Made by a program: the position numbers and the translations under genes. The notes below the pieces were generated by a model. That model was not told the DNA's origin. It saw only the letters and a program-made list of their open reading frames with translations, and ran no database searches. A DNA stretch of 64,000 nt. Source: a virus. How positions within the stretch are numbered: position 1 is the first letter of the stretch; the number at the start of each line of letters is the position of its first letter. Positions 14,006 through 38,258 of the stretch are shown in pieces. The stretch covers positions 1 through 64,000 of the IMG/VR virus record IMGVR_UViG_3300021389_001814. One strand, given 5' to 3'.

Positions 14006-14754
14006 TTTTTATACCTTACGTAGACACCGCCACTGGCACCAGATAAAGAACCAGAAGCACGAGCACCGCCGCTTCCAGAACCACTAATTCCGCCACCACT
14101 GCTTGCTCTACCTATTCCGGTTGCTCCCGTTCCGCCGCCAGCATAAGTATCATTTTGTCCTTTAAAATTTACTAATAGCGGGGAACCTCCGGTTGGTTGT
14201 CCGCCATTGCTTCCTGCTCCCCCGCCGCCGCCGCCGCGACGTGAATTCCCATTAGAACTTCCTACGCCATTTCCTCCCCTATTTCCTTGTCCAGAAATAC
14301 CAGAACCTCCAGTAAAAGCCAAAGATGTGGTGTAAGCAGCGCCGCCTCCGCCAGAACCTCCAGAGCTTCCAGAAGTCGTTGACCCGCCATTTCCTCCACC
14401 GCTTGATGTTAATCCATTAAATGAAGAAGAACCACCACTTCCGCCAACAGTTGTGTTATAAGTTCCAGAAGGCAATATTATGGGGTTTCCTATTGTATGC
14501 CGAACCCCGCCACCGCCGCCAGCGCCTGGAGCATATGTGTTACTTTGGCCAATGCTCCCTCCACGGCCTCCACCGCCTACGACCAAGTATTCCAAATCCG
14601 GATTATCTATATCGCCTTCTCGTATGATATTAATACTAGAAGAAGAAGAGAAACTGTGAACTTTGTATATTACTCCATTTATATTATGTTCTGATATTGC
14701 TCCGCCCGTGGCAATATGCTTTGGTTTTGATGAAATAACACTACAAATTAACAT
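14002..14754 (-). CDS. Glycine-rich tail adhesin
   Basis: 250 residues from the ATG at 14754, chosen because it overlaps the previous stop as TAATG with GGAG 10 bases upstream; a longer reading from 14781 would start inside the neighbour. After a short beta N-terminus, YLVVGGGG starts a domain made almost entirely of Gly, Ser and Asn (GGGGGVRHTIG, SGGGNGGST, RRGGGGGGAGS), ending in GGVYVRYKK. Such domains form polyglycine-II sandwiches in phage adhesins such as gp38 of the T4-like phage S16, where variable loops bind the receptor. It is probably a distal receptor-binding protein. The neighbours are collagen-like fibre genes. Confidence 0.75.
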   Translation of the reverse strand: MLICSVISSKPKHIATGGAISEHNINGVIYKVHSFSSSSSINIIREGDIDNPDLEYLVVGGGGRGGSIGQSNTYAPGAGGGGGVRHTIGNPIILPSGTYNTTVGGSGGSSSFNGLTSSGGGNGGSTTSGSSGGSGGGGAAYTTSLAFTGGSGISGQGNRGGNGVGSSNGNSRRGGGGGGAGSNGGQPTGGSPLLVNFKGQNDTYAGGGTGATGIGRASSGGGISGSGSGGARASGSLSGASGGVYVRYKK

Positions 14755-15221
14755 TATGCCAAATCTCCATATAGATACCATGTATTCGCGGCAAGCTTTG
14801 CAGCGGTTGCCATAGAATATTGAACCGCGAGTTGATTAGTTAATCCATTTCTTATCCTAACGGTCACGCCCGCTTCGCTTCCTATCGTAACAGAGCCAGT
14901 TCCATCCCGTGTAAAGTGGACAACTGTTCCTATCGGAAAGTCCAAAGTTGTATCATTTGGAATAGTATATGTGACTGTCGTAGAAGCAGTAGAAAACAGC
15001 ATACTGTTTGAATCTGTTAGAATTAATGTTCTGCTGACGGATACTGGTATTATTCCACCAATCGGAGAACCATTGAGTCCATCTTGTCCTGCTGTCCCTA
15101 TGCTGCCAGTGTATCCTAGACTCCCAAAAGAACCAGTATATCCGATTGCACCCTGAGAACCAGAATAACCAGTATCTCCGATAAAATCGCTTCCTAATAA
15201 ACTACTTAAACTTACTGCCAT
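14754..15221 (-). CDS. Short collagen-like tail fibre protein
   Basis: 155 residues. The N-terminus MAVSLSSLLGSDFIGDTG leads into collagen-like G-X-Y triplets (GYSGSQG, GYTGSFG, GYTGSIG) at about 16-55. A C-terminal beta domain (about 58-155) follows, with ILTDSNSMLFSTA, TYTIPNDT and GSVTIGSEAGVTVRI, resembling trimeric fibre heads. The same C-terminal layout recurs in the 561-residue fibre at 38270-39955 (TVTIPNYT, ITVSGASGVTIYRK). It is probably a homotrimeric fibre or whisker. It is translationally coupled to the glycine-rich gene downstream. Confidence 0.75.
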   Translation of the reverse strand: MAVSLSSLLGSDFIGDTGYSGSQGAIGYTGSFGSLGYTGSIGTAGQDGLNGSPIGGIIPVSVSRTLILTDSNSMLFSTASTTVTYTIPNDTTLDFPIGTVVHFTRDGTGSVTIGSEAGVTVRIRNGLTNQLAVQYSMATAAKLAANTWYLYGDLA

Positions 15222-15233
15222 ATTTTTATCCTT

Positions 15234-20783: not shown

Positions 20784-20792
20784 TTTTAATCC

Positions 20793-21041
20793 TTATGATA
20801 GCGCGATTGCAAAAGCAATTGCACTTGTGTCCGTTTTTGCTTCCCATTTTTCGGTTTCAGCATTATATATTAGAGATGCACCATCCGTGAGTCCTGTGGT
20901 ATCTATATTATCAGAACTATCTTCTAGGTCTTCCCTTAAACTCCATCTTTGCCCATCCCAAACCCACGTATTACTATCTACAGTATATGTAAAACTTCCA
21001 TCGGTTGGTTGTCCAGTTGTATCAGGAAAACTTAGTGCCAT
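20793..21041 (-). CDS. Small fibre protein made mainly of the MAxxFP N-terminal module
   Basis: 82 residues. The first 40 (MALSFPDTTGQ, then TWVWDGQRWSL) are the same N-terminal module that starts four larger fibre proteins in the window. The rest (TDGASLIYNAETEKWEAKTD) is a second small beta module, and the C-terminus AIAFAIALS resembles the tails of the collagen-like fibres (SVAMSILFG, AIAMTIVFGG). It could be an anchor or adaptor, or a fibre that has lost its shaft. It has its own late promoter at 21060. Confidence 0.7.
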   Translation of the reverse strand: MALSFPDTTGQPTDGSFTYTVDSNTWVWDGQRWSLREDLEDSSDNIDTTGLTDGASLIYNAETEKWEAKTDTSAIAFAIALS

Positions 21042-21059
21042 TTTTTATCTCCATTATTA

Positions 21060-21067
21060 TATTTATA
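21060..21067 (-). promoter_or_regulatory. Late promoter TATAAATA
   Basis: A perfect minus-strand TATAAATA lies 19 bases upstream of the start at 21041, with GGAG between. An overlapping GATAAATA lies at 21066-21073, inside the end of the preceding gene. Confidence 0.75.
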
Positions 21068-21068
21068 T

Positions 21069-22448
21069 TTATCCAAAAAGAATACTCATTGCAACACTGA
21101 ACCCACGATTCCCACTAGCCGCACTTCCAGTATAACCAACTGAACCTACGTTTGTTATGACTTGCCATATTGAACCATCATATACAAATTCAGCTTTACT
21201 TTGTCCTATATCTAAAAGCAAATCGTCATTTATTATGTCTTCAATTTGATTTCCGTTTCTTCCAACCGTGAGTGGATTTGTGGACCAATCACCGCCATCT
21301 GCAATCATGACAAAATCTCCCACACTAGGAGATGGTGGAAGATTTATAGTAAAAGAACCACCAGTAGTGTCTGCAATTATACCATCTTTATTCTGCGAAG
21401 TTATTCCGTCATCGGTTACTGTGTATACTTTCCAATTATATACCTGACCAATGCTTCCGTTATAACCACGACTTCCTGCATATCCGGATATTCCAAGACT
21501 TCCGGTATATCCACGAATGCCTTGCGGTCCGGTTGCACCCAACCAAGTTCCGTCATAATAAACATTCAAACTTGCATCATTTGAATTGAACCACAAATAT
21601 CCGTTTGTTAAGTTTGGGTTAATTGGTGCGGTATCTGTTACTTGTGCACTAAATCCACGGCTACCACTATATCCGGTGCTTCCGGTATAACCTATTCCTT
21701 TACTTCCTGTATATCCTAGTTCGCCTTTTGGTCCAATTGGTCCACTGACAACTACCCATTGACTTGTATCACCATCATCATAATATACTTTTAATGTTCC
21801 GTCTTCGGTGTCAAACCACATTTGACCATTAACTGGAGTAAGTGGTGGTGAATTTAGTGTTTCAGTTACGGTTCCGTCATCGCCACGACTTCCGGTAAAT
21901 CCCAAGTCTCCTTGCGATCCACGGCTTCCAGTATAACCAAATTCTCCACGACTACCAAGATACCCACGAGAACCAGCGTATCCAACATTTCCCTGAATGC
22001 CTTGCGAACCTATAAAACCTGTGTCACCTCTGCTGCCAGTGAAACCTATGCTTCCGGTGTATCCTAGTGTTCCTCGTGAACCTATAAAACCAGTAATACC
22101 ACGACTGCCCGTGTATCCTGCCCCAGTGCTTCCAGTATATCCTAGTATTCCTTGTGAACCTATAAACCCAGTAATACCACGGCTACCAGTGTACCCTGCA
22201 CCTGCTGGACCTTGTAATCCACGACTGCCAGTATATCCTAAAACACCTTGACTGCCAGTATACCCATCCCCTGTTCCAAAAGATATACTACCAAGAAATC
22301 CTAATCCTACAAAATTTCCATCACTGTCTATAACAAGTTTTGAATTAACTTTGAGACTATTAATATCTAATGATGGTGAAGATATTTTTAAATCTTCACC
22401 ATCATTTGTTTCAATTTCGTTAGTAGGATGTTTTATATTAATTGCCAT
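21069..22448 (-). CDS. Collagen-like tail fibre protein (459 residues)
   Basis: The N-terminus (1-60) has ISSPSLDINSLKVNSKLVID, a typical fibre anchor. Then come long runs of G-X-Y triplets (GYTGSQG, GYTGSRG, GITGFIG) at about 61-205. Two spacer modules follow (GQMWFDTEDGTLKVYYDD and GYLWFNSNDASLNVYYDG), more triplets, then a C-terminal beta module (IIADTTGGSFTINLP, then AEFVYDGSIWQVITNVG) and a final GYTGS segment. It is presumably a trimer with triple-helical shaft. No Shine-Dalgarno sequence precedes the ATG. The late octamer is so close (22454-22461) that its transcript would begin about at the ATG. Confidence 0.82.
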   Translation of the reverse strand: MAINIKHPTNEIETNDGEDLKISSPSLDINSLKVNSKLVIDSDGNFVGLGFLGSISFGTGDGYTGSQGVLGYTGSRGLQGPAGAGYTGSRGITGFIGSQGILGYTGSTGAGYTGSRGITGFIGSRGTLGYTGSIGFTGSRGDTGFIGSQGIQGNVGYAGSRGYLGSRGEFGYTGSRGSQGDLGFTGSRGDDGTVTETLNSPPLTPVNGQMWFDTEDGTLKVYYDDGDTSQWVVVSGPIGPKGELGYTGSKGIGYTGSTGYSGSRGFSAQVTDTAPINPNLTNGYLWFNSNDASLNVYYDGTWLGATGPQGIRGYTGSLGISGYAGSRGYNGSIGQVYNWKVYTVTDDGITSQNKDGIIADTTGGSFTINLPPSPSVGDFVMIADGGDWSTNPLTVGRNGNQIEDIINDDLLLDIGQSKAEFVYDGSIWQVITNVGSVGYTGSAASGNRGFSVAMSILFG

Positions 22449-22453
22449 ATATA

Positions 22454-22461
22454 TATTTATA
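22454..22461 (-). promoter_or_regulatory. Late promoter TATAAATA immediately before a start codon
   Basis: A minus-strand TATAAATA ends 5 bases before the ATG at 22448. If transcription begins at the distance usual for T4 late promoters, the mRNA would be leaderless or nearly so. Confidence 0.6.
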
Positions 22462-22906
22462 TTGGCTTAACAGGCCACTCTACTGTTTCTGGAAATCCTT
22501 GTTGATCGGTTATATCACGCAATGCTTGGCGATATTCTGCCATTTCTGCTGCTAGTGTAACGTCGCTTAAAGCAAGATAATCAGTTTCTGACAACAATTG
22601 ATTTCTTTGACTTCTTATACTATTGGCTTTTACTTCTATCCATTCCGCAATTTCAGTTTGAGTTTTTTCAACTACGTTCCAAATTTTAGTCCAGTTTCCA
22701 CTTTCATCTTGAACAAACCCACCGTCTTTTAATTTTTGTGTTTTTTTATCATAAGTTGGCTGTTCTTGTTGTATATATGGATACACATCAAATCTTGCTA
22801 ATATCTCATTTGATATTGTTTTTGGAAATGATACGTTTTTATTATCACGGCGCAATTTTCCGATTGTATAAATTTCGGGTTCACCGTTTGTTAGTTTGAT
22901 ATACAT
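22457..22906 (-). CDS. Tail-fibre assembly chaperone-like protein, paralogue 1
   Basis: 149 residues. The C-terminal half (about 85-149) has RNQLLSETDYLALSD, then AEYRQALRDITDQQGFP and EWPVKPI, the signature of phage tail assembly chaperone proteins (PF16778-like; R..LL.ETD...YRQ.LRD......W...P). The N-terminal half starts like a fibre-associated beta module (YIKLTNGEPEIYTIGKLRRDN). Such proteins help fold or attach fibres and are usually encoded next to their fibre. Two paralogues lie at 26227-26652 and 31237-31710. AGGAG precedes the start. Confidence 0.8.
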   Translation of the reverse strand: MYIKLTNGEPEIYTIGKLRRDNKNVSFPKTISNEILARFDVYPYIQQEQPTYDKKTQKLKDGGFVQDESGNWTKIWNVVEKTQTEIAEWIEVKANSIRSQRNQLLSETDYLALSDVTLAAEMAEYRQALRDITDQQGFPETVEWPVKPI

Positions 22907-22907: not shown

Positions 22908-23669
22908 TTATTCTCCTATTAGATTGAGTGCTACTTGACTGCCTTGAAAACCGCCAAACTCTGTAACAGTGCCAGTGATAGTTTGCGAAGTTGCTAATGC
23001 AGCAGGATTGCCTATAAGAGCAGTTGTTCTCAAGTTATCGTAGCTTCCTGTTGAAAATATGTTTGCACTGTAGATTTTTGCAAATCCATCGCCAGTATCA
23101 ATTGAAAGACTTCCAGCATTTCTGTTATCACTGGTATTTACCTGCGCCATAAACAGTGCAGGAGTTCTGTTTAGAGTAAGACCAGTAGAAGGATAGTTGA
23201 TTGATAAATTGTTGCTTTGGGCACTTTGTCCTACCAACTCCACTGACGAAACTCCAGTGGCTGCAAATGCTTGAAATGTTCTGCGACCTGCACCGTTTGC
23301 TTGCAGTCCCGGCCCTGTCACACCAAACGCACCGTGACTTGACAAGGTACTGCCGCTGGTAACAAAAACGCTGTGTTCAAAGCCTCCCGATGTTCTATTG
23401 TAGTTAGCATAGATATATGTGCTTGCAGAAGTAGCAGTTGAAGAAGTAGCAACTCCGATAGTGTCTGATGTCGGAGAAGTGCCATCCCACCAGGTTGACA
23501 CTTGCATTATTACAGTATATGCACTTGACTTCCAAGCTGTGGGTATTGTAACAAACTCCCAATCAGTGTCCCAGATATATGTATTAAGTGTTATGTTAGT
23601 AGAATCTACAAAAATACTAGATTCTAAGGCACTGGACCCTGCTGCACCAATTGCACTATGAAATAACAT
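22908..23669 (-). CDS. Virion-associated protein of unknown function (fibre tip?)
   Basis: 253 residues, not recognised. It is beta-rich with many Ser, Thr, Gly and Asn (STATSASTYIYANYNRTSGG), which is typical of fibre or receptor-binding domains. The N-terminus MLFHSAIGAAG and C-terminus GSQVALNLIGE are short and hydrophobic. The start overlaps the stop of the collagen-like gene upstream (TAATG). A chaperone-like gene follows 1 base downstream. This collagen shaft / tip-like / chaperone order suggests that it is the distal domain of the fibre encoded just before. Confidence 0.6.
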   Translation of the reverse strand: MLFHSAIGAAGSSALESSIFVDSTNITLNTYIWDTDWEFVTIPTAWKSSAYTVIMQVSTWWDGTSPTSDTIGVATSSTATSASTYIYANYNRTSGGFEHSVFVTSGSTLSSHGAFGVTGPGLQANGAGRRTFQAFAATGVSSVELVGQSAQSNNLSINYPSTGLTLNRTPALFMAQVNTSDNRNAGSLSIDTGDGFAKIYSANIFSTGSYDNLRTTALIGNPAALATSQTITGTVTEFGGFQGSQVALNLIGE

Positions 23670-24220
23670 TACGATCCATCTCCCACTAAAGCGCCATAAA
23701 CTGTGCCATTAACTTTCCATAATGCTATAACTGTATAATTTCCACTATCTGGCCATGCTGGCGCAGAACCACCATTATTAACCCATTCTACAGTTGTCCA
23801 AGTTGTTACGCTTCCACTACCGCTATTATCATTAATCATTAGTGTAACAACTTCTCCATCAACAAAATTTGTTACATCAATAGTTCTACTTGCTCCCAAT
23901 GCGGTCAGATACTGTATACTTCCATTTGCTGGTTCAATAGTAATAGTGGCAGCATCAGTTAGTGCGAAAGTTTGTTCTTGTATTGATCCCGTAAATATCG
24001 CTTCACTTGAATTAAAAGAACCAGTGCTACCAGTGTATCCCAACGTTCCTTGCGATCCAGTATATCCTGCGCCAGTGCTACCAGTGTATCCCAACGTTCC
24101 TTGCGATCCTTGCGATCCAGTATATCCTGCGCCAGTGCTACCAGTGTATCCCAAATTGCCTTGGGAACCAGTATATCCAGTATATGTTTGGTTCAAAAAG
24201 TCATTTAAATTTATTGTCAT
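23669..24220 (-). CDS. Short collagen-like tail fibre protein (183 residues)
   Basis: The N-terminus (INLNDFLNQTYTGYTGSQG) goes straight into collagen-like triplets (GYTGSTGAGYTGSQG repeated) to about residue 70. The C-terminal beta module (about 72-183) has FTGSIQEQTFALTD, then TWTTVEWVNNGG and VIALWKVNGTVYGALVGDG, a C-terminal module shared with at least four other fibres. The repeat DNA is nearly perfect in tandem, so the shaft length is probably variable. GGAG lies 9 bases before the ATG, and there is a late motif at 24242. Confidence 0.8.
   Translation of the reverse strand: MTINLNDFLNQTYTGYTGSQGNLGYTGSTGAGYTGSQGSQGTLGYTGSTGAGYTGSQGTLGYTGSTGSFNSSEAIFTGSIQEQTFALTDAATITIEPANGSIQYLTALGASRTIDVTNFVDGEVVTLMINDNSGSGSVTTWTTVEWVNNGGSAPAWPDSGNYTVIALWKVNGTVYGALVGDGS
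24021..24154 (-). repeat. Tandem repeat in the collagen-like shaft (51/60-bp units)
   Basis: Three copies start at 24021, 24072 and 24132, with periods of 51 and 60 bases. The second copy contains an extra 9-base duplication (TTGCGATCC twice), i.e. three extra residues in frame. The third copy ends in divergent sequence. Confidence 0.85.
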
Positions 24221-24248: not shown

Positions 24249-25291
24249 TGTATTTTTTCAACAATTTGAAGGATTATAGTTCCACTAATAGACGAACCAT
24301 CGTAAATTTGTGTAATATTAGAAAATTGGTTATTACTCCAATCGGCATAGTAAAAATTTTTATCTGCTTGAAAATATATCCTGCTTTCATTTTCTATCCA
24401 AAAAATCGCTCTTATTTCGGAACTAGCGTTGGGAATATCGGAAAATGTTATATTATCTAAAGAAGAAGTTCCGAAACCAGTTCCTTGTGTGTACTGAATT
24501 GCTTCAATCGTCCCAGTTGTAGTTATCCAAAAAATAGTATCACCAGCATCATTAACAATAGCAGGAAAGTTGAAAACAGAAGTTGTATGTATTCTAACTG
24601 TGCCGAAACCAGTAGTATCGTCCCATTCGTAAACATATATTGCATTTTGCCAATCAACCACGATAACATGTGAATCGTCTTTAAACCAATAAGGTTCAGT
24701 TGCTACATAATCTTGAGATGGTTTTGATGCAGGATTAGAATACAATGATCCTACTGTTCCAGTTGTTTGGTTAAAACTATAAAAATATAATATATTAGTT
24801 GCACCTGTGAAACTTGACAAAACTGTTCCAGAATTATTAAAAGAAACTGTTGCAAAAGTTCCGGTACTGTATGGTCCTATATATGACCCAACTCCTACAG
24901 AATCTGTATAATTCCACAAATATATTGCACTCAAATCCCCAGACGTAGCAATATATTTCCCATTTGGAGAAAATGCGCCACTCTGTGATCTGTTGCCACC
25001 TGTACTTGAAGTTAAACCAGTGCTTAATTCTCCACTGTTTTTGTCGAAATTTAAAGGCAACACATAAGGAGTACCATTATACCTTATCATGGCTACTGCA
25101 TTTTGTTCAGGGTTCATTTGTAAATCATATATATAAATGTCGTTGTTATAAGTTGAAATATTGCCAGTATCTATCGAATTGCCATTTTCTATCAATGTCG
25201 AAGAAATAACATTTGAAGAAACATTAATCCATATTAATGCAATAGGAGACCCAGAAACACTAGATGCTCTTAAAATTTTACTACGAATCAT
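24245..25291 (-). CDS. WD40/beta-propeller-like virion protein
   Basis: 348 residues from the ATG at 25291, which overlaps the upstream stop as TAATG; the longer reading from 25342 lies inside the neighbour's 3' end. About six blade-like repeats occur, e.g. GAFSPNGKYIATSGDLSAIY, ATVSFNNSGTVLSSF, PYWFKDDSHVIVVDWQNAIY and FWIENESRIYFQADKNF, each with a beta hairpin around a G/N turn and a W/Y-rich outer strand. Propellers commonly bind proteins or sugars. The context between collagen fibres suggests a receptor-binding head. It differs in sequence from the other propeller fibres at 31735-35373 and 35398-36666. Confidence 0.7.
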   Translation of the reverse strand: MIRSKILRASSVSGSPIALIWINVSSNVISSTLIENGNSIDTGNISTYNNDIYIYDLQMNPEQNAVAMIRYNGTPYVLPLNFDKNSGELSTGLTSSTGGNRSQSGAFSPNGKYIATSGDLSAIYLWNYTDSVGVGSYIGPYSTGTFATVSFNNSGTVLSSFTGATNILYFYSFNQTTGTVGSLYSNPASKPSQDYVATEPYWFKDDSHVIVVDWQNAIYVYEWDDTTGFGTVRIHTTSVFNFPAIVNDAGDTIFWITTTGTIEAIQYTQGTGFGTSSLDNITFSDIPNASSEIRAIFWIENESRIYFQADKNFYYADWSNNQFSNITQIYDGSSISGTIILQIVEKIQ

Positions 25292-26196
25292 TATGCAACA
25301 TCTCCGACATATGCAGCATAAAGTGTAGTTCCGACTTTCCAAAATTCTATAACACTATAACCAGTTGTAGCTAGTGTTGGGCCACTTCCTCCCACCCAAG
25401 ATGTTCCAGTTGGCCAAGTAATTACATATCCAGTAGCATCTACCGTCATAAGAGTAATATATTCTCCACTTAATAGTGAATCTGTATATGTAGTATCTGC
25501 CGCAATTGTTTGCGTTTGTATTGTGCCATTACTTGCATCTAATGATGGAGTTGCACCTTCTGTAGTCAAATCATAGACCTGTTCTGCAACTGCACCAGTA
25601 AAACTAATATCCGTATTAAATGTGCTTGGTATGACACCTTCTGGTCCTTGGCTTCCAGCATATCCCAATGTCCCTTGTGAACCTATGAATCCGATTTCTC
25701 CCTGACTTCCAGTATAACCAATATCTCCTTGTTTGCCGATATTAGTCAATACCTGCCACGTTGTTCCATCATATATAAATTCTACCCTTATTCCACTTAT
25801 ATTAAGAATAAAATCGTCGCTGATTCCTTCAATTGTTTCTAAACTGGTAAGATTTCTAGCAACGGTGAGAGGGTTTGTTTCCCAACTTGCCCCATCGGTG
25901 ATTTCTACTATGCTTCCAACGCTAGGACTTTCTGGCAAATAAACGGTAAAAGAACCACCACTAGTATCTGCGATTATAGAATCAGTATTTTGCAATTGAT
26001 ATATTGAAGTCTTTAGACTCCAATTCATAGTACCACGACTACCAGTGTATCCGTTACTTCCGGTATATCCATTACTTCCAGTATATCCTATGGGAATAGT
26101 ATTTTCTAGCGCCCAGTATGTTCCGGTCCATGTATATGTTTTGCCAGAATATTCATATGTTGTTGCTATATTCGGGTCTGGAAAGTTTAATGGCAT
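25291..26196 (-). CDS. Modular collagen-like tail fibre protein (301 residues)
   Basis: It starts with the shared N-terminal module (MPLNFPDPN, then YTWTGTYWALEN, 1-35). Short triplets (GYTGSNG three times) follow, then the ADTSGGSFTVYLP beta module (about 70-150), a second collagen stretch (GYTGSQGEIGFIGSQG), and the shared C-terminal module (FTGAVAEQVYDLTT, then WPTGTSWVGG and VIEFWKVGTTLYAAYVGD). It is therefore a complete anchor-shaft-head fibre in miniature. It is coupled by TAATG to the propeller gene downstream and has a perfect late promoter upstream. Confidence 0.82.
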   Translation of the reverse strand: MPLNFPDPNIATTYEYSGKTYTWTGTYWALENTIPIGYTGSNGYTGSNGYTGSRGTMNWSLKTSIYQLQNTDSIIADTSGGSFTVYLPESPSVGSIVEITDGASWETNPLTVARNLTSLETIEGISDDFILNISGIRVEFIYDGTTWQVLTNIGKQGDIGYTGSQGEIGFIGSQGTLGYAGSQGPEGVIPSTFNTDISFTGAVAEQVYDLTTEGATPSLDASNGTIQTQTIAADTTYTDSLLSGEYITLMTVDATGYVITWPTGTSWVGGSGPTLATTGYSVIEFWKVGTTLYAAYVGDVA

Positions 26197-26224: not shown

Positions 26225-26232
26225 ATTTATAT
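26225..26232 (-). promoter_or_regulatory. Late promoter TATAAATA
   Basis: A perfect minus-strand octamer lies 28 bases before the start at 26196. It overlaps the last codons of the preceding chaperone-like gene. GAGG precedes the ATG. Confidence 0.75.
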
Positions 26233-26652
26233 TGGTTTAGTTGGCCAAACTACATTCCATGGGTCAATATCATTCAAGTTATTATATAAATCTCGCAATT
26301 CTTGACGATAGGCTACATAATTTGGATCAATCGCAATGCCCGTTTCTATTGCTTTGATTACCTTATAATCGGTTTCAGCTAATAATCTATCGCATTCTCT
26401 TCTTAATTCATCCCAACGCGCCATTATCTCACTATCATTAGGCGATCTGACAACCCATTGCACATTTTCACCATCCCATTCCAGTTTGTTGGGATATTCT
26501 GCAATAGGGGGATTTTCGACTTGAACGTAGCCCGCATCTACGATTTCTTGTTCTGTGAATGTTGTGCGGTCTGATCTAATTTTTCCATTTGATAGTCGAA
26601 TCATATGCGGAATTTGATTTGGATATTCTCGGTTTTTTGTATATAATGTCAT
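26227..26652 (-). CDS. Tail-fibre assembly chaperone-like protein, paralogue 2
   Basis: 141 residues. The C-terminal signature RRECDRLLAETDYKVI, then YVAYRQELRDLYNN and VVWPTKPI matches paralogues 1 and 3. The N-terminal part differs (NREYPNQIPHMIRLSNGKIRSDRTTFTEQEIVDAGY), so specificity for the cognate fibre may lie there. The start overlaps the stop of the upstream 254-residue protein as ATGA, suggesting co-production with that putative fibre tip. Confidence 0.8.
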   Translation of the reverse strand: MTLYTKNREYPNQIPHMIRLSNGKIRSDRTTFTEQEIVDAGYVQVENPPIAEYPNKLEWDGENVQWVVRSPNDSEIMARWDELRRECDRLLAETDYKVIKAIETGIAIDPNYVAYRQELRDLYNNLNDIDPWNVVWPTKPI

Positions 26653-29064: not shown

Positions 29065-30639
29065 TTAACCTCCAAAAACAATTGTCATTGCAATGGCTTT
29101 ACCAGTAACATCGGCAGTCGGTCCTTGGCTTCCGGTGTATCCAACATCTCCCTTTTCACCAATGTTGCTTATAACTTGCCAAGTTGTTCCATCATATATA
29201 AATTCAGTTCTATTACTTCCGATATCAAGTATTATGTCGTCACTAACACCTTCAATAGTAGAACCATTTCTTAAAATTGTTAATGGATTAATTGACCAAT
29301 TGCTTGCATCTGCAAACACAACTGTATTTCCTTGTAAGGGCGATGCTGGCAAACTTATACTAAAACTTGCACTGCTTGTATCTGCTAATATTGCTTCTAA
29401 GTTACTTGCAACATACAAATCGTTTGTGTTGTCTAAATAGACCCAATCGTGGAATTTCCCAGTAGAACCTACAAACCCGGTAATCCCGCGACTTCCAGTA
29501 TACCCTATGTTTCCTTGACTACCACTATATCCACGTAATCCTCTTGGTCCGGTAGCACCTACCCAAGTTTCATCATAATAAACATTCAAACTCGCATCTG
29601 TTGAATTAAACCATAAATACCCATTTGAAATATCAGGAGTTGACGGTGCCGTGTCAGTTACTTGTGCACTAAATCCGCGACTACCACTATATCCGACACT
29701 TCCGCTATATCCTTGACTTCCAGCGAAACCAATTTCACCTTGTGGACCAATTGGTCCACTAACAACTACCCATTGCGTCGTGTCGCCATCGTCGTAATAT
29801 ACTTTCAGAGACCCATCTTCAGTGTCAAACCACATTTGACCATTAACTGGATTACTAGGCGGGGAGCTAAGTGTTTCAGTTAATATACCAGTTATACCCT
29901 TACTTCCACTGAATCCGCGACTTCCGATATATCCAATACTTCCGGCATAACCTTGGCTACCTTGGAAACCTTGCGAACCATTAAACCCCTGACTTCCAGT
30001 CCATCCTTGTGAACCAGTATATCCTATTATACCTTGACTTCCGGTATATCCCTGACTACCTTGGAAACCTTGCGAACCATTAAACCCCTGACTTCCAGTC
30101 CATCCTTGTGAACCAGTATATCCTATTATACCTTGACTTCCGGTATATCCCTGACTACCTTGGAAACCTTGACTTCCGGTCCATCCTTGTGAACCAGTGT
30201 ATCCTTGACTTCCTGCCCATCCTTGTGAACCAGTATATCCTATTATACCCTGACTTCCGGTGTATCCCTGCGAACCCGTATATCCGCGAGAACCAGTATA
30301 AGCACGACTGCCAGTATATCCAATTATTCCCTGAGAACCAGTATATCCCTGCGACCCATTAAACCCCTGACTTCCGGTGTATCCCTGCGAACCAGTATAT
30401 GCACGAGAACCAGTATACCCCAATATACCCTGACTTCCAATGAAACCAGTTATACCCTGACTTCCGCTGAACCCACGAATACCACCATAGGGCAAACTGG
30501 CCCAATCAGTAACACCATCGCCTATTTTAAATTGTCTAGTATCAGTTTCTAATGCTATTTCGCCAACGGCTAAAACTGGATTTGCATCATTCCATTCAAA
30601 TTGGGTTCCGCGTCTAAATTGAAATTGAATAAACGCCAT
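29065..30639 (-). CDS. Collagen-like tail fibre with Mtd_N-type anchor (524 residues)
   Basis: The start at 30639 is preferred because it overlaps the upstream stop as TAATG with GGAGG upstream; a longer reading from 30657 lies within the neighbour. The N-terminus (FQFRRGTQFEW, then VLAVGEIALETDTRQFKIGD) matches the Mtd_N-type fibre anchor. Collagen-like triplets with GYTGSQG, GWTGSQG, GFNGSQG and GFQGSQG fill about 55-245. The GQMWFDTEDGSLKVYYDD and GYLWFNS spacers, more triplets, an ADTSSASFSISLP beta module and a short tail (AIAMTIVFGG) follow. It contains a perfect 99-bp tandem duplication. Confidence 0.85.
   Translation of the reverse strand: MAFIQFQFRRGTQFEWNDANPVLAVGEIALETDTRQFKIGDGVTDWASLPYGGIRGFSGSQGITGFIGSQGILGYTGSRAYTGSQGYTGSQGFNGSQGYTGSQGIIGYTGSRAYTGSRGYTGSQGYTGSQGIIGYTGSQGWAGSQGYTGSQGWTGSQGFQGSQGYTGSQGIIGYTGSQGWTGSQGFNGSQGFQGSQGYTGSQGIIGYTGSQGWTGSQGFNGSQGFQGSQGYAGSIGYIGSRGFSGSKGITGILTETLSSPPSNPVNGQMWFDTEDGSLKVYYDDGDTTQWVVVSGPIGPQGEIGFAGSQGYSGSVGYSGSRGFSAQVTDTAPSTPDISNGYLWFNSTDASLNVYYDETWVGATGPRGLRGYSGSQGNIGYTGSRGITGFVGSTGKFHDWVYLDNTNDLYVASNLEAILADTSSASFSISLPASPLQGNTVVFADASNWSINPLTILRNGSTIEGVSDDIILDIGSNRTEFIYDGTTWQVISNIGEKGDVGYTGSQGPTADVTGKAIAMTIVFGG
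29962..30159 (-). repeat. Perfect 99-bp tandem duplication in a fibre shaft
   Basis: Copies 29962-30060 and 30061-30159 are identical base for base, encoding 33 residues (11 G-X-Y triplets) each. A third partial copy starts at 30160 and diverges after about 10 bases. Confidence 0.92.
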
Positions 30640-30932
30640 TAAGAAACACCTCCGCAATTAATATTAAATCCTACAGAAAAATCTGTATAAGGTGTTCCTG
30701 CATCATAAATTATTGGACTTGGCGCACCCACACTTCCGGTATAACCACGGCTTCCGGTATATCCAAATCCACCTGTTCCGCCGCCACCAGTGGATACCAG
30801 TTCCCAGTTTCCATCACCAGTTCCAATTAATAATTGTTTTGTTTCAGTGTCATAATATAATCTATCTTTGTCAATTTTTAAATTGTCAAGTAATAAATTT
30901 TTGTTTGTAGACCAGATTTTTAAAACAGGCAT
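30639..30932 (-). CDS. Small fibre-associated protein with short collagen-like segment
   Basis: 97 residues. The N-terminus (VLKIWSTNKNLLLDNLKIDKD) and RLYYDTETKQLLIGTGDGNWELV (23-45) form a small anchor beta module like the Mtd_N type (DTxxxxLxIGDG). It is followed by GGGGTGG, two collagen-like triplet groups (GYTGSRGYTGSVG) and a C-terminus FSVGFNINCGGVS that resembles the tails of the long collagen fibres. It is probably a miniature fibre or whisker. It is coupled to the 524-residue fibre through TAATG. Confidence 0.7.
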   Translation of the reverse strand: MPVLKIWSTNKNLLLDNLKIDKDRLYYDTETKQLLIGTGDGNWELVSTGGGGTGGFGYTGSRGYTGSVGAPSPIIYDAGTPYTDFSVGFNINCGGVS

Positions 30933-30937
30933 AGAAC

Positions 30938-31174: not shown

Positions 31175-31228
31175 TTATAATTATCCTTTTAAGTATACTA
31201 GTTATATTTATTAAAAAGATACCGTGAT
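31161..31228 (-). other. 11-bp inverted repeat spanning a gene start and its late promoter
   Basis: TCACGGTATCT (31161-31171) and its exact complement AGATACCGTGA (31218-31228) flank a 46-base interval with the ATG, ribosome site and late ATAAATA. Read-through mRNA from upstream could fold over codons 2-5. mRNA started at the late promoter would lack the upstream arm. Confidence 0.55.
31205..31211 (-). promoter_or_regulatory. Late promoter motif ATAAATA
   Basis: Minus-strand ATAAATATAAC lies 31 bases before the start at 31174, inside the loop of the inverted repeat 31161-31228. Confidence 0.6.
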
Positions 31229-31236
31229 TTATTTCA

Positions 31237-31710
31237 TTAGGGTTTTGTTGGCCAAGTTACTGCATACGGAAAGTTTTCTTGTTTAGGAATATCTCTTAAC
31301 GCTTGACGATAATCTTTCCATTCTTGTGGAACACTGATACCATCTTCAAGATATTTAATAGGAACCCAATCGGTCTCAGTAAGATTTTCGTCTCTTATGG
31401 AACGAATTTTATTTTCCAATGCAAGTTTTTCGCTATCAATAGTTTCCTGCGATTTTTGAATAGTATCCCATCCTACAATCCAATTATTATCTTTTAATAC
31501 TGGTGTAGATTTTTTAGAAAGTATCTGTGTGATACTGTCATAATCTGGTTTAACATCCTCGTAAACAGGACGAACATTTTTTTGTATTAAGAATGTGTTA
31601 TTCAATACTTTTGGAAAGCTTGTATTTTTATTGTCTGCGCGAAACATATCCAAAGTATAAGGATACTGTTCTATTTCCCCTGCATTATTTAGTTTTACAA
31701 AAAGTAACAT
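31237..31710 (-). CDS. Tail-fibre assembly chaperone-like protein, paralogue 3
   Basis: 157 residues. RDENLTETDWVPIKYL, then EWKDYRQALRDIPKQENFP and VTWPTKP give the same C-terminal signature as the paralogues at 22457 and 26227. The N-terminal half (LLFVKLNNAGEIEQYPYTLD, then FRADNKNTSFPKVLN) is closest to paralogue 1 (LRRDNKNVSFPKTIS). It follows the large propeller fibre gene, its likely client. The AAGGAGATAAATATATG arrangement gives a strong ribosome site. Confidence 0.82.
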   Translation of the reverse strand: MLLFVKLNNAGEIEQYPYTLDMFRADNKNTSFPKVLNNTFLIQKNVRPVYEDVKPDYDSITQILSKKSTPVLKDNNWIVGWDTIQKSQETIDSEKLALENKIRSIRDENLTETDWVPIKYLEDGISVPQEWKDYRQALRDIPKQENFPYAVTWPTKP

Positions 31711-31731
31711 ATATTTATCTCCTTATACATA

Positions 31732-31738
31732 TATTTAT
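31732..31738 (-). promoter_or_regulatory. Late promoter motif ATAAATA for chaperone-like gene 3
   Basis: Minus-strand AATAAATATATG lies 21 bases before the start at 31710 and overlaps the end of the propeller fibre gene. A second ATAAATA (31712-31718) sits between ribosome site and ATG, too close to act as promoter. Confidence 0.55.
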
Positions 31739-34700
31739 TGTGGATTATCTGAATTTTTTATTTTTTCTAAACCGTATATACGATTTCCATTGTCCGAAAC
31801 ATATAATTCTACAATGGTACTACTTCCTCTTGCTGGTATCTGCGGTGGGCTATCATTTTCCCAATTTATACCAGTTGGCCATATGATCATAGGACTATAT
31901 GTTGCAATTGTGTATGAATATATAGAATTATTACCGTCTCCCAACATAAACATTTTTGATCCGCTATAATCAAATCCAACATCTGCCATAGGTATAGTAG
32001 GAACTGCGGTAAATGCTTTTCCATCATAAGATGCAGTTGTTATGTCCCACGGCGTTGACATTGTGAATTGGAATATATCGTCACGGTCTAGACCATAAAT
32101 AAACAATTTATCACCTAGTGGACTTATATAGAATGTTGTAAGATTTCTTTCATTCACATCTATTCTAAAATGTTCTTGGAATACTGCGGTTTGAGAATTG
32201 TCTATACTACTCAAGTCCCACGCGGTGTTTAAAACGTATTCCACGACGGTATTATCGTATGTTCCCATTACATACAATCTTGTTCCATCTGGCTTGAATT
32301 GTATTTTTGTATATGGGTCAATCGTGTAATTTACATTGATATCCGCAAAATAGGCGTCATAAGGATATGTTTTTCCTCGGCCCCAAACTATGCGAACCGC
32401 GCCATCGCCGCCGTCAGTTGTTCCAGAAGTATTTCTATCGTCACTTCTTGCACCATACCCAAAAACGGCGGATGCTAGTGTTCCATTTGATACATTTATG
32501 GAACCATTTCCGCCGTTTCCGCCATTATACACGCCAGCAGCACCGTCACTGCCAATTCCATAGATTCCGACAGCGCCACCGACGCCGCCAAGGTATCCAT
32601 TGGAACCACCGCCGCCACCGCCGCCTGCCCCGCCAGCACCAGCAGTAGCTAATCCAGTATAAAAGCCACCATTGCCGCCATTTCCAAGATATCCTCCGGC
32701 ACCACCACCGCCACTTGCAAATGAAGAAGATGTGCTACTACTCCCATTTCCTCCATTTCCGCCACCGTCACCGACATATGTGCCGCCAGTGTACCGATTT
32801 GCACCACTGCCCAATACTGTGCCAGTCGTCGTAAAATAACTAGCTCCGCCAGAATTTGAAGAATTGGATAAATATACACCTGCACCGCCTGCACCCACCA
32901 CAACAGTATACGATTGTCCTGGAATAACAGGTATGTCATTTTTCCAACCAAGCCCGCCGCCGCCACCAGAACGAGCGTAATAGGCATCTCCCGCGACACC
33001 ACCGCCGCCGCCGCCTATACATACTGCGCTAACACTAGTAACTCCATTCGGACAAGTCCAGCTATAAGTTCCGGGTGTTGTGTAAATTGCTTCACCATGG
33101 TAGTCTGCTGGATTTGGAAGTGTAACCGTAGTCCCAGAATATGATTGACCGCCTGAATCAAATCCCAATTCCCACGCAATATCTAAATCATATTGACTAA
33201 TTGTTCCATTGGCAGAACCAATCGCATACAATATAGTTCCATCTTCATTAAACATAAATCCACTAGAATTACTATCCTGTAAACCAACATTTAAGAAACC
33301 ACTAGGACCAGATGCAGATATAGAAGACAAATCATATTGTATATCACAATTGTATTGTAGTATTATAGGGCTTATGTTTCCAAGAACATAAAGTCTGAAT
33401 CCATCTTTGCCCCATCTAAATGCGATAATATCTTCATCCCCTGCTTTCGTTGTTGGGTTAAATGTTATTCCATCACTGCTATAATTTTCTAAATCCCATT
33501 CACCATAATCAATATCATATTGATATACGCGGTCGGTGTTATAATCACATAGATATAGATGCTCTCCATCTGGGCTTACGCAGATATCACTAAATGTAGT
33601 CCCGCCTATTCCACTAAATTCTATCGTTTTTCCAGTAAAAGATGCAGTGCTAACACGGAAAGGCGTAGACAATCTAAATTGACTTACGCTCTTTAATGTT
33701 CGGTCCATAATAAACATATGGCGTCCATCTTCGGTGAACGATATACCATGAAAACTTATGCCATATGTTGTTCCTAAGTTGTAACTATATGTATTTGTTA
33801 AAGTTTTGTTTCCTAGAGTCCATGGAGCATCTAGCACATACTGATATACAATTTCACTTATTCCTAAAATATAAAAATTTAGTCCATCGCTACTAAACCA
33901 CATTCCATATGGGATACTTTCTTGTGCGCCAATATAACCATTATCTACATACGATGCAGTTGTTATATCCCAAGGGGTTGACATTAAATACATTCTAACA
34001 CGGTCAGTACTTGTTCCAACAATATAAAAATATTTTCCATCGGGCGAGACGTATATCGCAGTAGGAGAAGTTTCTGCGGAACCTATATAAAATTCTTTAT
34101 GTTGATATCTTGCACTAGTTATATCCCAAGGCGTATTTAAAACATAATAATGAACCTTATCGTCGTTACTTGAAACTGCATACATCCTAGTTCCATCATG
34201 AGTGACAAATAACCCTTCAATTGTTTCCATATGTTTATTCATGCTATAATAACCAGAATATGATGCACTAGAAACTGTCCAATCAGTTATGGTATATTTG
34301 TGTATTCGGTAATTCGAAGATTCTGCATAAAACATTTCTGTTCCATCAGGATTAAAGAACACACTTCTTCCAGCAGTAGAAATACTAGCAAAACTATAAC
34401 TATCGTCTGCGCCAGCACTTCCTAAAATATTCCAAGCAGAATTTAAGTCATACATATAAACACGATCTGTTGCCCCGCCAAATACATATAATTTTAATCC
34501 ATCGCTTTGTCTAATATACATTTGTATGGGAGAACTATCTTCCGCAGTAACCGACAATTCTTGGAAAACATAACTTAATGGGGTAGGACTGCCATCAGAG
34601 AAAACCCATGCAGTATTAAGAGAATATTGAAAAATCTTGTTTTCGCTATCAGAAAGTAAGAACATAGTTTTTCCGGCAGAATAATGTCCATCATCTCTAA

Positions 34701-35373
34701 AGTATACACTTTGTAAATTTGTTCCTTGAACGCTCGCGTCGTATGATTCGTCTGGCGTAATAAAATTACCACTAGTTATATCCCAAGCAGTTGAAAGAAT
34801 AACGTGATAAACAAATTGAGTATTATTTGTCAAGTATGCGTGTAATCCATCATTGCTAATATATAATCCATTCACTCCGCTTATTGCGGAAACACTTGCA
34901 ACTTTATCTATCGTGTTTATATCCCATGGATCACTTAGTGCACCACTTTGTATTTGTCCAATATTATCAACTAAGAATATTTTTGTTCCATCTGGAGAAA
35001 AAAACATGTGATCTACACTAGTTTCCAAAAATTCGCTATAAAGATTAGTGCTACCCTTATAAACACTAGTATCAATATCCATTTCACCGATGTTACCATT
35101 TCGTTCCATAGTGATACTTAATTTTGAGCTTTTGTTTTGTGGGATATTTTGTAGACGCAATCTTGAACCAATATTTGTATCCAAGTCTATTCTGGCATTG
35201 TTTCCATTTGCAATATCAATATCCACGTTTATAGTATTGGAACCATAATCCTGCGATGTGGTACTGAATGTTTGTTGTGTTAGTGACCAGCTTTCACCGT
35301 TCCAAGTAAAAACTGTATTATTAGCAGTGAAGGTTTCACCTACTGTTGGATTGCTTGGAAAATTGATTGCCAT
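31735..35373 (-). CDS. Large fibre protein: beta-propeller blades with an inserted glycine-rich domain
   Basis: 1212 residues. Residues 1-35 are the shared anchor module (MAINFPSNPTVGE, then FTWNGESWSL). From about 120 to 770 there is a long series of blade repeats of the type FFSPDGTKIFLV...YQYDLDTAWDI. A glycine-rich domain (about 785-1000; GGGGGGVAG, GAGGAGGGGGGGSNG, ending AVRIVWGRG) is inserted. Further blades follow (FKPDGTRLYVMGTYDNTVVE). The C-terminus is the shared WPTGINWEND...IVELYVSDNG module. Propellers and polyglycine sandwiches are both receptor-binding folds, so this is probably a main adhesin. Chaperone-like gene 3 follows. Confidence 0.78.
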   Translation of the reverse strand: MAINFPSNPTVGETFTANNTVFTWNGESWSLTQQTFSTTSQDYGSNTINVDIDIANGNNARIDLDTNIGSRLRLQNIPQNKSSKLSITMERNGNIGEMDIDTSVYKGSTNLYSEFLETSVDHMFFSPDGTKIFLVDNIGQIQSGALSDPWDINTIDKVASVSAISGVNGLYISNDGLHAYLTNNTQFVYHVILSTAWDITSGNFITPDESYDASVQGTNLQSVYFRDDGHYSAGKTMFLLSDSENKIFQYSLNTAWVFSDGSPTPLSYVFQELSVTAEDSSPIQMYIRQSDGLKLYVFGGATDRVYMYDLNSAWNILGSAGADDSYSFASISTAGRSVFFNPDGTEMFYAESSNYRIHKYTITDWTVSSASYSGYYSMNKHMETIEGLFVTHDGTRMYAVSSNDDKVHYYVLNTPWDITSARYQHKEFYIGSAETSPTAIYVSPDGKYFYIVGTSTDRVRMYLMSTPWDITTASYVDNGYIGAQESIPYGMWFSSDGLNFYILGISEIVYQYVLDAPWTLGNKTLTNTYSYNLGTTYGISFHGISFTEDGRHMFIMDRTLKSVSQFRLSTPFRVSTASFTGKTIEFSGIGGTTFSDICVSPDGEHLYLCDYNTDRVYQYDIDYGEWDLENYSSDGITFNPTTKAGDEDIIAFRWGKDGFRLYVLGNISPIILQYNCDIQYDLSSISASGPSGFLNVGLQDSNSSGFMFNEDGTILYAIGSANGTISQYDLDIAWELGFDSGGQSYSGTTVTLPNPADYHGEAIYTTPGTYSWTCPNGVTSVSAVCIGGGGGGVAGDAYYARSGGGGGLGWKNDIPVIPGQSYTVVVGAGGAGVYLSNSSNSGGASYFTTTGTVLGSGANRYTGGTYVGDGGGNGGNGSSSTSSSFASGGGGAGGYLGNGGNGGFYTGLATAGAGGAGGGGGGGSNGYLGGVGGAVGIYGIGSDGAAGVYNGGNGGNGSINVSNGTLASAVFGYGARSDDRNTSGTTDGGDGAVRIVWGRGKTYPYDAYFADINVNYTIDPYTKIQFKPDGTRLYVMGTYDNTVVEYVLNTAWDLSSIDNSQTAVFQEHFRIDVNERNLTTFYISPLGDKLFIYGLDRDDIFQFTMSTPWDITTASYDGKAFTAVPTIPMADVGFDYSGSKMFMLGDGNNSIYSYTIATYSPMIIWPTGINWENDSPPQIPARGSSTIVELYVSDNGNRIYGLEKIKNSDNPQ

Positions 35374-35397
35374 ATTTTATTATATCCTTTGAACATA

Positions 35398-36666
35398 TTA
35401 TATATTATTTATTATCTGTCTAGCATAGTAAGTAATGCCATTATCTGGTGTTTGCATTTCGTATAATGCAGAGTTATTTAAATCTGGCGTATCAGGGGTA
35501 GTGTCGTATTCCCATTTTACATTTTCAGGCCAAATTACATCACACACTGAATCCACGGTTACATTTGACGAACTATATTGATTAACTTGTTGCGAACTAT
35601 TCAAATAATACATTTTTGAACCATCACTATTAAATTCAAAACTATACATATTATTGGATAATATATTGTTTTCATTAGAATTTAATCTTACTAAACTTGC
35701 AGTAGACACCTGCCACTGTTCTGATAATTCGTATTGACGAAATTCATTAGTATTTCTATCCGATATAAACATATATCGTCCATCTTCTGAGAATCTTATT
35801 TTACTGTATGCAATGGTGGGATTATTTCCTATTATTTTAAATGTTCCGACTAGCGTGGAACCACCGCTAAAATCAAAATTCGAATTTAATTCATATTGCC
35901 AGATAGCATCTGCGCTAGTTTGACCAACTTCATAAATATATAAATAATCTCCATTTGTGGAAAACGTGAAACTATTAAATGCAGAACTGGCGAATGCCAA
36001 ATAGGTGGAAAAAGTCGGATTCGTTATATCCCATGGAGAAGACAAATCGTATTCATTTATAGCGTTTGCACTGGTTCCTCCAGTAACGTATAATTTTAGT
36101 CCGTCATTGGATATGCAAAAATCTGACAGGTCAGTTACATTCAATGTTCCTGTAAGACTGGTAGATACCGTAGATGTTCCTATACTAGTTAAATCAAATG
36201 GATTTCCTAGCTCATATCGTCTTACAGCTTCAACTTCTCTTTCCAATACATAAAGATATTCTCCGCCTGTAACTGGTCCACCAAATTTAAAACTAAATAC
36301 ACTGTATACTGATAAATCTTCTGTTTGTATATTATCATATACTAAATTGTTAATATCATAACTTGTGATATTAGTATCACTATAATCGCCAGTTGTGTTA
36401 ATTTTTACGAAAAATCTTGAATTAGTATCGCCAGAAGATACATTTTCAAAATTTATGGCAGTAGTCGTAGAAACATCTATATCAAAAAAGTTTGCATTTG
36501 ATAAATCCAAAATTGCATCATTGTCTACATCGGGCGTGACATTTTCTTTTCTAACAATATAGGAACGACGAATTGGTTGCCATTTTTTACCATCATATTC
36601 GTAAAAATATGAACCTTCTTGGTGTATATCTCCTAGCGTGGGTGATGTAGGGAAATTAAGAGCCAT
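35398..36666 (-). CDS. Beta-propeller tail fibre protein (422 residues)
   Basis: It starts with the shared anchor module (MALNFPTSPTLGDI, then YEYDGKKWQPI). Residues about 40-110 are a beta domain also seen in the 1212-residue fibre. From about 110 to 360 there are blade repeats (EYLYVLEREVEAVRRYELGN, DFCISNDGLKLYVTGG, FSEDGRYMFISDRNTNEFRQ, FNSDGSKMYYLNSSQQVNQY). The C-terminus holds the shared module (IWPENVKWEYDTTP, then ALYEMQTPDNG). It looks like a shorter paralogue of the 1212-residue protein, encoded immediately upstream of it. A late motif lies within its 3' end and serves the next gene. Confidence 0.76.
   Translation of the reverse strand: MALNFPTSPTLGDIHQEGSYFYEYDGKKWQPIRRSYIVRKENVTPDVDNDAILDLSNANFFDIDVSTTTAINFENVSSGDTNSRFFVKINTTGDYSDTNITSYDINNLVYDNIQTEDLSVYSVFSFKFGGPVTGGEYLYVLEREVEAVRRYELGNPFDLTSIGTSTVSTSLTGTLNVTDLSDFCISNDGLKLYVTGGTSANAINEYDLSSPWDITNPTFSTYLAFASSAFNSFTFSTNGDYLYIYEVGQTSADAIWQYELNSNFDFSGGSTLVGTFKIIGNNPTIAYSKIRFSEDGRYMFISDRNTNEFRQYELSEQWQVSTASLVRLNSNENNILSNNMYSFEFNSDGSKMYYLNSSQQVNQYSSSNVTVDSVCDVIWPENVKWEYDTTPDTPDLNNSALYEMQTPDNGITYYARQIINNI
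35406..35412 (-). promoter_or_regulatory. Late promoter motif ATAAATA for the 1212-residue fibre gene
   Basis: Minus-strand AATAAATAATA lies 32 bases upstream of the start at 35373, overlapping the last codons of the preceding gene. AAAGGA follows. Confidence 0.6.
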
Positions 36667-36677
36667 CGTTTATTCCT

Positions 36678-38258
36678 TTATCCATTGTAAATCGTATCTG
36701 CAATAAGTATTCCATCAAACTTATAAAATTCTATTATTTGAGAAGAATTTGTATCAACGCTAGGCGCAAACCCATTTGCCCAAAGAATTTGAGTTGGCCA
36801 ATTTATGCTATAATTTACTTCTCCATTGTTATTTAATTTTAACAAAAAGTTGTCTGTTCCAATAACGCTAGTTATATCAACGGTATATTCTGGGTTAACT
36901 ATAACACGCTGATAATCAGTTAGTGTTCCTTTTTCAAGCTGTGCGCCCCATACATACATTCCTTTTGTAGAATCCCCATCATATATCAGTTGTTGGGAAT
37001 CATTTTCAGTATAAATGAATGCATAATGGTATCCTATAAACCCAGTCTTTCCAGTTATAGAAACGCGATACCAACCATTTGGTTCTTCTGTTATAGCAGA
37101 GTCAGATATCACGGCATTTCCTACGCTATCAACTCCCCCAGTAACCGTATTTACTGTTAAACTTCCGAAATCGAATTCAGCATCAATAAATGAATTAAAT
37201 GTGTTTGTTGCAATTCTAATCATACCATATCGTCTTTGTTGTTTTTTAACATAAAACGAAAGAGTGTAATCTTGATTTATATCATCTACCGTATGATTAT
37301 AAACCAAATAGTATGAAACCCCGGTTCCGTTGGTTTCTAGAATTAAGTCACCAGTGAGTGTATTATCTGGTGCTAGAATAGTATCTTTTGTTATAGTTGT
37401 GTTTGCTTTGAACCAAACATTGTTTTCAAATTCTTGTGTATATATTAATTTATTTTTATATCCGGGTCTATAATAATCACTAAGTTCGCCTTCTTCAAGA
37501 ACTGCTCCCCAAACATACAAACCAGAACTGCCATCACCATTATAAGCAGAATATACATCATTTCCTGTAGTTGCATTTTCTATTATACGAAATTGCGTAC
37601 TATAATATATTCCATTTGACGCTGCTGATGCAGTTATCCAGCATCTATACCAATCATTGCCAACATTTTCTACCCCAGCACTATAATCCCCAGATACAGC
37701 AATATGCGCAACTTCGGTATCAAGATTGAAGGCAACTCCTATGTAATTACCATATATTACATTATTCAATACCATTCCAAAATGTCTGTTACCAGAAGAC
37801 CTTTTGACGTATACACTATGCGTATATTTTTTTCCTGCGTTATACGGACCGCCATATTTTTGAAAATATCGTGCAACGCTTGCAGTAGAATCCTCTGTTA
37901 TCAAGTCAGCAGTTGTGTTACCATCTATCGCTACTGCTTGATTCAGTGTCACACTTCCATACAATACACTACTAAACGTGAACCAACTATTTCCAGACAA
38001 ATCTTCCGGAAAATCCCAAAAATTATATTTTTTTCCAATATCATATTCTACAAAATTATAAAGATTGGTATTAACCGATATTTTAGGAATATCATTATCA
38101 GTTAATTCATATCTTTTGTAATCAGTAAATTCACTTGAAATTAAACTGTTATTTTCAATTGGACCAGTGATCCATTTTTTTCCATTCCACTTATAAATCT
38201 TTTCACCAAATGAATATATCTGGCCAAGTGTTGGATTATTTGGAAAATTTATTGCCAT
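36678..38258 (-). CDS. Tail fibre protein with two tandem carbohydrate-binding-like modules
   Basis: 526 residues. The shared anchor module (MAINFPNNPTLGQI, then YKWNGKKWITG) is followed by two copies of a jelly-roll module of about 175 residues. Copy 1 (about 75-265) has YTHSVYVKRSSGNRHFGMVL, NDWYRCWITA and GLYVWGAVLEEGELSDYYRP. Copy 2 (about 270-455) has YTLSFYVKKQQRRYGMIRI, NGWYRVSITG and GMYVWGAQLEKGTLTDYQRV. Such modules are common in phage fibres and are related to CBM-type lectins. The C-terminus is the shared module with NWPTQILWANG and IIEFYKFDG. The duplicated domains would raise avidity for a glycan. Confidence 0.76.
   Translation of the reverse strand: MAINFPNNPTLGQIYSFGEKIYKWNGKKWITGPIENNSLISSEFTDYKRYELTDNDIPKISVNTNLYNFVEYDIGKKYNFWDFPEDLSGNSWFTFSSVLYGSVTLNQAVAIDGNTTADLITEDSTASVARYFQKYGGPYNAGKKYTHSVYVKRSSGNRHFGMVLNNVIYGNYIGVAFNLDTEVAHIAVSGDYSAGVENVGNDWYRCWITASAASNGIYYSTQFRIIENATTGNDVYSAYNGDGSSGLYVWGAVLEEGELSDYYRPGYKNKLIYTQEFENNVWFKANTTITKDTILAPDNTLTGDLILETNGTGVSYYLVYNHTVDDINQDYTLSFYVKKQQRRYGMIRIATNTFNSFIDAEFDFGSLTVNTVTGGVDSVGNAVISDSAITEEPNGWYRVSITGKTGFIGYHYAFIYTENDSQQLIYDGDSTKGMYVWGAQLEKGTLTDYQRVIVNPEYTVDITSVIGTDNFLLKLNNNGEVNYSINWPTQILWANGFAPSVDTNSSQIIEFYKFDGILIADTIYNG

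Follow-up and report, generated by a model that had tools for sequence, protein, structure and literature searches.

In the window analysed here, the whole stretch of 64,000 nucleotides belonging to a virus contig of 68,466 bases, several fibre proteins resemble one another at their ends and differ in their middle parts, which raises the question of where in such proteins the variable domains are exchanged. A sequence-only reading had proposed that middle domains are swapped between a putative docking base at the N-terminus and a putative trimer-closing end at the C-terminus. Swapping itself is borne out by nucleotide breakpoints in relatives, but the evidence supports an exchange site inside the C-terminal domain and not between two end caps. 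It is probable that the fibre group of this jumbo T4-superfamily phage shares a C-terminal frame with one loop which takes whole domains, and that these are gained, lost or exchanged by recombination. The major capsid (67–70%) and sheath proteins (61611–62777 and 1987–4449) are close to those of the jumbo T4-superfamily phages PA5oct, Callisto, Atu_ph07 and Phosso, and given this grouping, the contig probably represents only part of a much larger genome.

The similarity of the protein ends was examined using leave-one-out HMM profiles run against 500 ORFs. Trained on four of the N-terminal parts, a profile recovered the fifth every time (E = 8e-11 to 3.5e-3), and the C-terminal parts were recovered with E = 3e-13 to 7e-6, which indicates that both similarities are genuine. 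The weakest recoveries were those of 25291–26196 (E = 3.5e-3) and 20793–21041 for the N-module and that of 35398–36666 for the C-terminal part. The motifs by which the ends had been described hold as a similarity, but not to the letter: the N-terminal start is MPLNFP in 25291 and MALSFP in 20793, and the C-terminal motif is looser than given, with WTTVEW in 23669 and WPENVKW in 35398. Both ends are present in only four proteins (25291, 31735, 35398 and 36678), 20793 being a lone N-module and 23669 having the C-domain only. At least two C-type ends exist in the window, as 38270 and 14754 share another than that of the five proteins; this distinct end of 14754–15221 and 38270–39955, ..QYSxxxxxKxxxNxWxLxGDL (phrog_21978), is a second fibre-end type.

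The middle parts had been regarded as unrelated. The collagen, propeller and spike-fibre types do differ; however, beta-propellers (Pfam Lactonase/SGL) are found in 31735 as well as in 35398, so the middles of these two are not unrelated. Their assignment to the beta-propellers (Lactonase/SGL clans) is given by blade repeats found with Pfam and, for 35398, by the fold found with AlphaFold2 and Foldseek. Gly-X-Y repeats (Pfam Collagen) occur in 23669, 25291, 21069 and 38270, and are not listed for 31735, 35398 and 36678. Another shuffled unit, about 80 aa long, IADTSGGSFTxYLPxxPxxG...NPLTVxRN...EFIYDGTTWQV, lies between collagen stretches in five proteins (21069–22448, 25291–26196, 29065–30657, 38270–39955, where it occurs twice, and 40720–42837).

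The C-type end had been taken for a whole module, and it turned out to be just the second half of a beta domain of about 95 aa. Whole proteins of 118–150 aa are uninterrupted versions of this domain, and since bare proteins of 118 aa exist (for example, 7863–8213 of contig L148), the two halves make one domain without an insert. All ORFs were searched with two half-profiles, trained on just 54 short uninterrupted proteins. The halves were profiled separately, from short proteins, because propeller blades masqueraded as the first half in an iterated profile of the domain, which was dropped. The second half was found in 305 proteins; the domain is contiguous in 179 of them, interrupted in 97 and undecided in 29. 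These counts are not independent, and 76 of the 97 split proteins were collected by a scan that started from propeller proteins; where the C motif was the seed, only 3 of 127 proteins had the split layout. None of the 305 scored as both contiguous and split, and in the 97 split proteins the first half lies 233–525 aa upstream with nothing adjacent to the second.

The insertion point is one hairpin loop, between the '..F.LEVTG' strand and the 'TITWP..' strand, and in 257 of 273 proteins no more than 15 residues separate the end of the domain from the C-terminus. The commonest inserts are propeller repeats of about 262 or about 525 residues, and DUF7483 (PF24299) and LamG-like inserts occupy the same loop, so that three unrelated insert types are found at a single site. 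The bare frame had no match in Pfam or NCBIfam and no PDB relative by sequence, and its Foldseek fold matches were weak, the best being the Pa223 capsid spike (E = 0.019), with T4 gp9 at E = 0.044. Alignments of the five N- or C-modules of the window were too divergent to serve as scan queries, and scans of viral contigs with single proteins gave one relative for 36678 and none for 35398. The scan of cellular genomes returned propellers alone, the frame being absent. In Patescibacteria and archaeal MAGs (L345–L351) the same kind of propeller repeats occurs, and the fibre frame is absent from them. A literature search found nothing directly on this domain or on propeller inserts in tail fibres.

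As listed in Table 1, the fibres of the window show three layouts: the C-domain is split in 35398–36666 and 31735–35373, it is uninterrupted in 23669 and 25291, and extra domains precede it in 36678. In both split proteins its first half sits just behind the N-module, and the module edge had therefore been drawn at the wrong position. When the residues of 35398 up to 95 were joined with those from 376, the domain score increased from 17.5 to 40.1 bits, and none of 30 shuffled prefixes exceeded 27.9. The AlphaFold2 model of 35398 has a pLDDT of 82.7, its Foldseek matches among solved structures are propellers, and among viral proteins it is matched best by gp51 of Lentibacter phage ICBM2. In this protein of an isolate, the first half precedes the propeller with 20.8 bits, and the second half follows it weakly. 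The joined halves of 31735 scored 39.2 bits versus 24.7 alone, with a maximum of 34.9 for the shuffles; its first half is weak. For 36678, which does not show an insertion, joining gave no gain (45.1 to 49.6 bits; shuffles 51.5). Insertion of its spike-fibre domains in a second loop was considered and is unsupported, the joined-halves test being negative. The two spike-fibre stretches resemble parts of tail proteins in other phages, and this GTA-type domain (NF048003) is here combined with the N-module and the C-domain.

Table 1. Positions of the fibre modules and of the adjoining chaperone gene in the window.
Feature	Position	Strand	Basis
N-module (MALNFPTSPTLGDIHQEG..YEYDGKKW), fibre 35398–36666	36574..36666	-	leave-one-out HMM, E 3e-8
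C-domain first half, 35398–36666	36382..36516	-	21.0 bits, profile of relatives' first halves
Beta-propeller within C-domain loop, 35398–36666	35545..36369	-	AlphaFold2, Foldseek
C-domain second half, 35398–36666	35401..35544	-	leave-one-out HMM, half-profiles, joined-halves test
N-module, fibre 31735–35373	35281..35373	-	leave-one-out HMM
C-domain first half (weaker), 31735–35373	35095..35235	-	4–5 bits alone, at expected place
Insert of about 1065 aa, propeller repeats flanking a glycine-rich domain, 31735–35373	31903..35094	-	Pfam SGL, Lactonase, Gly_rich_2
Gly_rich_2 in insert, 31735–35373	32383–33081	-	Pfam
C-domain second half, 31735–35373	31738..31902	-	leave-one-out HMM, half-profiles
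N-module, fibre 36678–38258	38166..38258	-	leave-one-out HMM
Two GTA-type spike-fibre domains (NF048003), 36678–38258	36921..38015	-	NCBIfam E 8e-54, two stretches
C-domain behind middle domains, first strand unrecognisable, 36678–38258	36681..36917	-	leave-one-out HMM
N-module, fibre 25291–26196	26107..26196	-	leave-one-out HMM, E 3.5e-3, weakest
Uninterrupted C-domain behind collagen repeats, 25291–26196	25294..25569	-	adjacent halves 20.1 + 31.6 bits
Uninterrupted C-domain behind collagen repeats, without N-module, 23669–24220	23672..23965	-	adjacent halves 36.1 + 37.0 bits
N-module, short protein without C-domain, 20793–21041	20937..21041	-	leave-one-out HMM
Tail fibre assembly chaperone, downstream of fibre block	31237..31710	-	PHROG tail fiber assembly families; same neighbour in relatives

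The layouts of 25291 and 36678 can be read as linear fibres in which domains are swapped between an intact N-terminal cap and an intact C-terminal cap, and some relatives have propellers ahead of an intact C-domain (for example, 8954–10096 of L149). However, the C-domain itself is split in the 97 relatives and in 35398 and 31735, and the breakpoints described below fall inside it. Swapping between two intact caps is unlikely, and for the propeller proteins such a layout is already contradicted.

The breakpoints were read in nucleotide comparisons of relatives, among which near-identical metagenomic contigs differ by the insert alone. In the syntenic metagenomic contigs L130 and L207, which are 92–98% identical in nucleotides, one gene has a propeller in L130 only (799 nt, against 19 nt in L207), and a second gene has one in L207 only (814 nt, against 22 nt in L130). 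Other pairs in which the insert is present on one side have similar frame halves, with nucleotide identities of 95% and 96% (L146/L183), 98% and 89% (L144/L173), 91% and 96% (L138/L157), and 97% and 86% (L148/L206). Seven gain/loss pairs were read at the codon level, and in every one the breakpoints lie inside the loop: the identity ends in the turn behind the '(E)VTG' or 'LLL' strand and restarts at the 'TITWP' or 'TITYP' codons. In three further pairs the insert is replaced: the inserts have no nucleotide similarity between frame halves of 98% and 97% (L127/L133), are similar across 170 of 804 nt between halves of 99% and 99% (L131/L135), and, in the case of DUF7483, are similar across 114 of 972 nt between halves of 97% and 97% (L210/L216). 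The converse was found in L157/L208, where the insert is 99% identical over 785 nt and the frames are just 78–80% identical.

Pair comparisons leave the direction of change unpolarised, and the bare forms could accordingly be deletion derivatives, which lost an original insert by recombination and acquired no new domain. Three unrelated domain types at one site, dissimilar inserts in near-identical frames and the empty frame of distant phages, such as Escherichia Justusliebigvirus, all argue against this, and we regard it as very unlikely. The nucleotide evidence comes nearly all from metagenomic contigs, so assembly error is possible for any single case, and near-identical frames are the type of repeat that confuses assemblers. 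Assembly chimeras mimicking the presence and absence of inserts are nevertheless an extremely improbable account of the pattern, since the junctions lie at the borders of frame and insert and not within identical stretches, the open reading frames are kept, several contig pairs repeat the pattern with synteny on both sides, and the isolate protein ICBM2 gp51 has the split layout.

The protein identities of 76 single-propeller proteins give a corresponding picture. The two frame halves correlate with rho = 0.61, and the correlations of the halves with the insert are 0.22 and 0.45. In 69 protein pairs the identity of each frame half reaches 80% or more; their median insert identity is 48%, compared with 43% for all pairs, and in 43 of these 69 the inserts are less than 50% identical. 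That each module evolves together with its own middle domain is thus not what the relatives show, because nucleotide breakpoints are present in them. Cassette trading between adjacent genes of one contig is not supported, as inserts of the same contig have a median identity of 44% against 43%; since they are no more alike, the replacements seem to be drawn from other phages and not from the neighbouring gene. An alignment of module DNA, which had been suggested for locating breakpoints, places them within the loop in relatives; in the window itself the module DNA is only 38–66% identical and shows no recent exchange, so any exchange there is old.

The N-module, about 31 aa long, behaves differently from a fixed partner of the C-domain. 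Relatives were collected from IMG/VR with a DNA pattern for MA-x-NFP-xx-P-xxx-G. Among the matches listed (236 by profile), the motif is at the protein start 187 times and elsewhere 49 times, a ratio that is biased because the pattern demands ATG. Also among the matches listed, 14 of 153 complete N-module proteins carry the C-domain, and the C-termini of the remainder form many clusters and 52 singletons. Conversely, seven or more kinds of N-terminus occur among the C-domain proteins. These two observations suggest that the N-module is a widespread, mostly terminal hairpin without a fixed partner; N-module-like hairpins are also seen internally in other proteins. In the C-terminal part of the head/neck structural protein 5719–6807, at residues of about 274–286, there is a weak N-module-like motif (GISFPNDPNQGDYFVRTD..), which alone is a chance-level match, yet is mirrored in L014, L054 and L002.

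As is expected for trimeric phage tail fibres, an assembly chaperone adjoins the fibre genes. Its paralogues are 22457–22906 and 26227–26652, and each of the three different copies lies close to its own fibre block. The relative L038 has glycosyltransferase and chaperone neighbours as in the window; in it, one bare frame precedes two frames with propellers, and all three have the N-module. Near the collagen-like fibres of the window, 9674–13072 is a large gene which reads as two glycosyltransferase parts and a methyltransferase part, and 13072–13644, a 2OG-Fe(II) oxygenase, adjoins many of these fibres. It is possible that the oxygenase and glycosyltransferase genes modify collagen repeats or host glycans.

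The closest parallel is the evolved Dit (evoDit) of lactococcal skunaviruses, in which an internal carbohydrate-binding insert separates long from classical forms and alters adsorption; many insert groups are known, and the entire plain form can be aligned with the ends of the enlarged one (PMC10688798, PMC6669499). The present frame likewise exists in a plain and an enlarged form, of which the latter aligns with the former at its ends. However, the evoDit scaffold is the Dit ring protein of the siphophage baseplate with carbohydrate-binding modules as inserts, whereas the present scaffold is a C-terminal fibre domain of T4-like and other phages with propeller, DUF7483 and LamG inserts; it had no Pfam, NCBIfam or PDB match, and no Dit was among the Foldseek matches listed. 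Judged by these sequence comparisons, the frame appears to work like evoDit, and, since its scaffold differs from Dit, not to be a member of it. The tail fibres of Alteromonas phages A5/V22 carry a duplicated knob domain, inserted at a single site, and have a chaperone whose hairpin is longer to match (PMC10579305). They share with the window the adjoining of tail fibre and chaperone, but unrelated domains alternate here in one loop. The host recognition cluster of pelagimyophages and cyanomyophages, T4-like marine phages, contains hypervariable fibre genes, collagen and concanavalin-like domains and glycosyltransferases (PMC7029224); the parts of that account consulted describe variability at the gene level, and not a shared frame with a loop cassette.

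The mechanism we propose is as follows. The C-terminal beta domain acts as a frame common to a group of tail or baseplate fibres, and its loop accepts a propeller of five-blade size, a double propeller, DUF7483 or LamG. Recombination in the conserved frame DNA would replace the insert without disturbing attachment and assembly, the frame, the N-terminal part and the assembly chaperone staying while the inserts change. By analogy with established phage-fibre biology, the frame may lie at the distal end of a trimeric fibre and trimerise at its tip, with the insert reaching the host surface. The inserts may thus bind surface sugars or proteins of the host, and their exchange may change the host range. 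As one loop takes differing and probably host-gripping domains, one fibre frame can carry different grips.

We would give an even chance to a more general proposal, that the loop of this widespread C-terminal frame is a hot spot for adhesin domains of unrelated folds, swapped between phages through frame recombination, with host recognition changing fast while virion attachment and the chaperone remain constant. The exchange site of a probable host-binding part is fixed here to within a few codons, in a domain without a Pfam or NCBIfam match or a solved sequence relative. This would provide a second, independent case of the evolved-Dit principle on a different scaffold, and a testable rule for finding the receptor-binding domains of uncultured phages, which is to search between the two frame halves.
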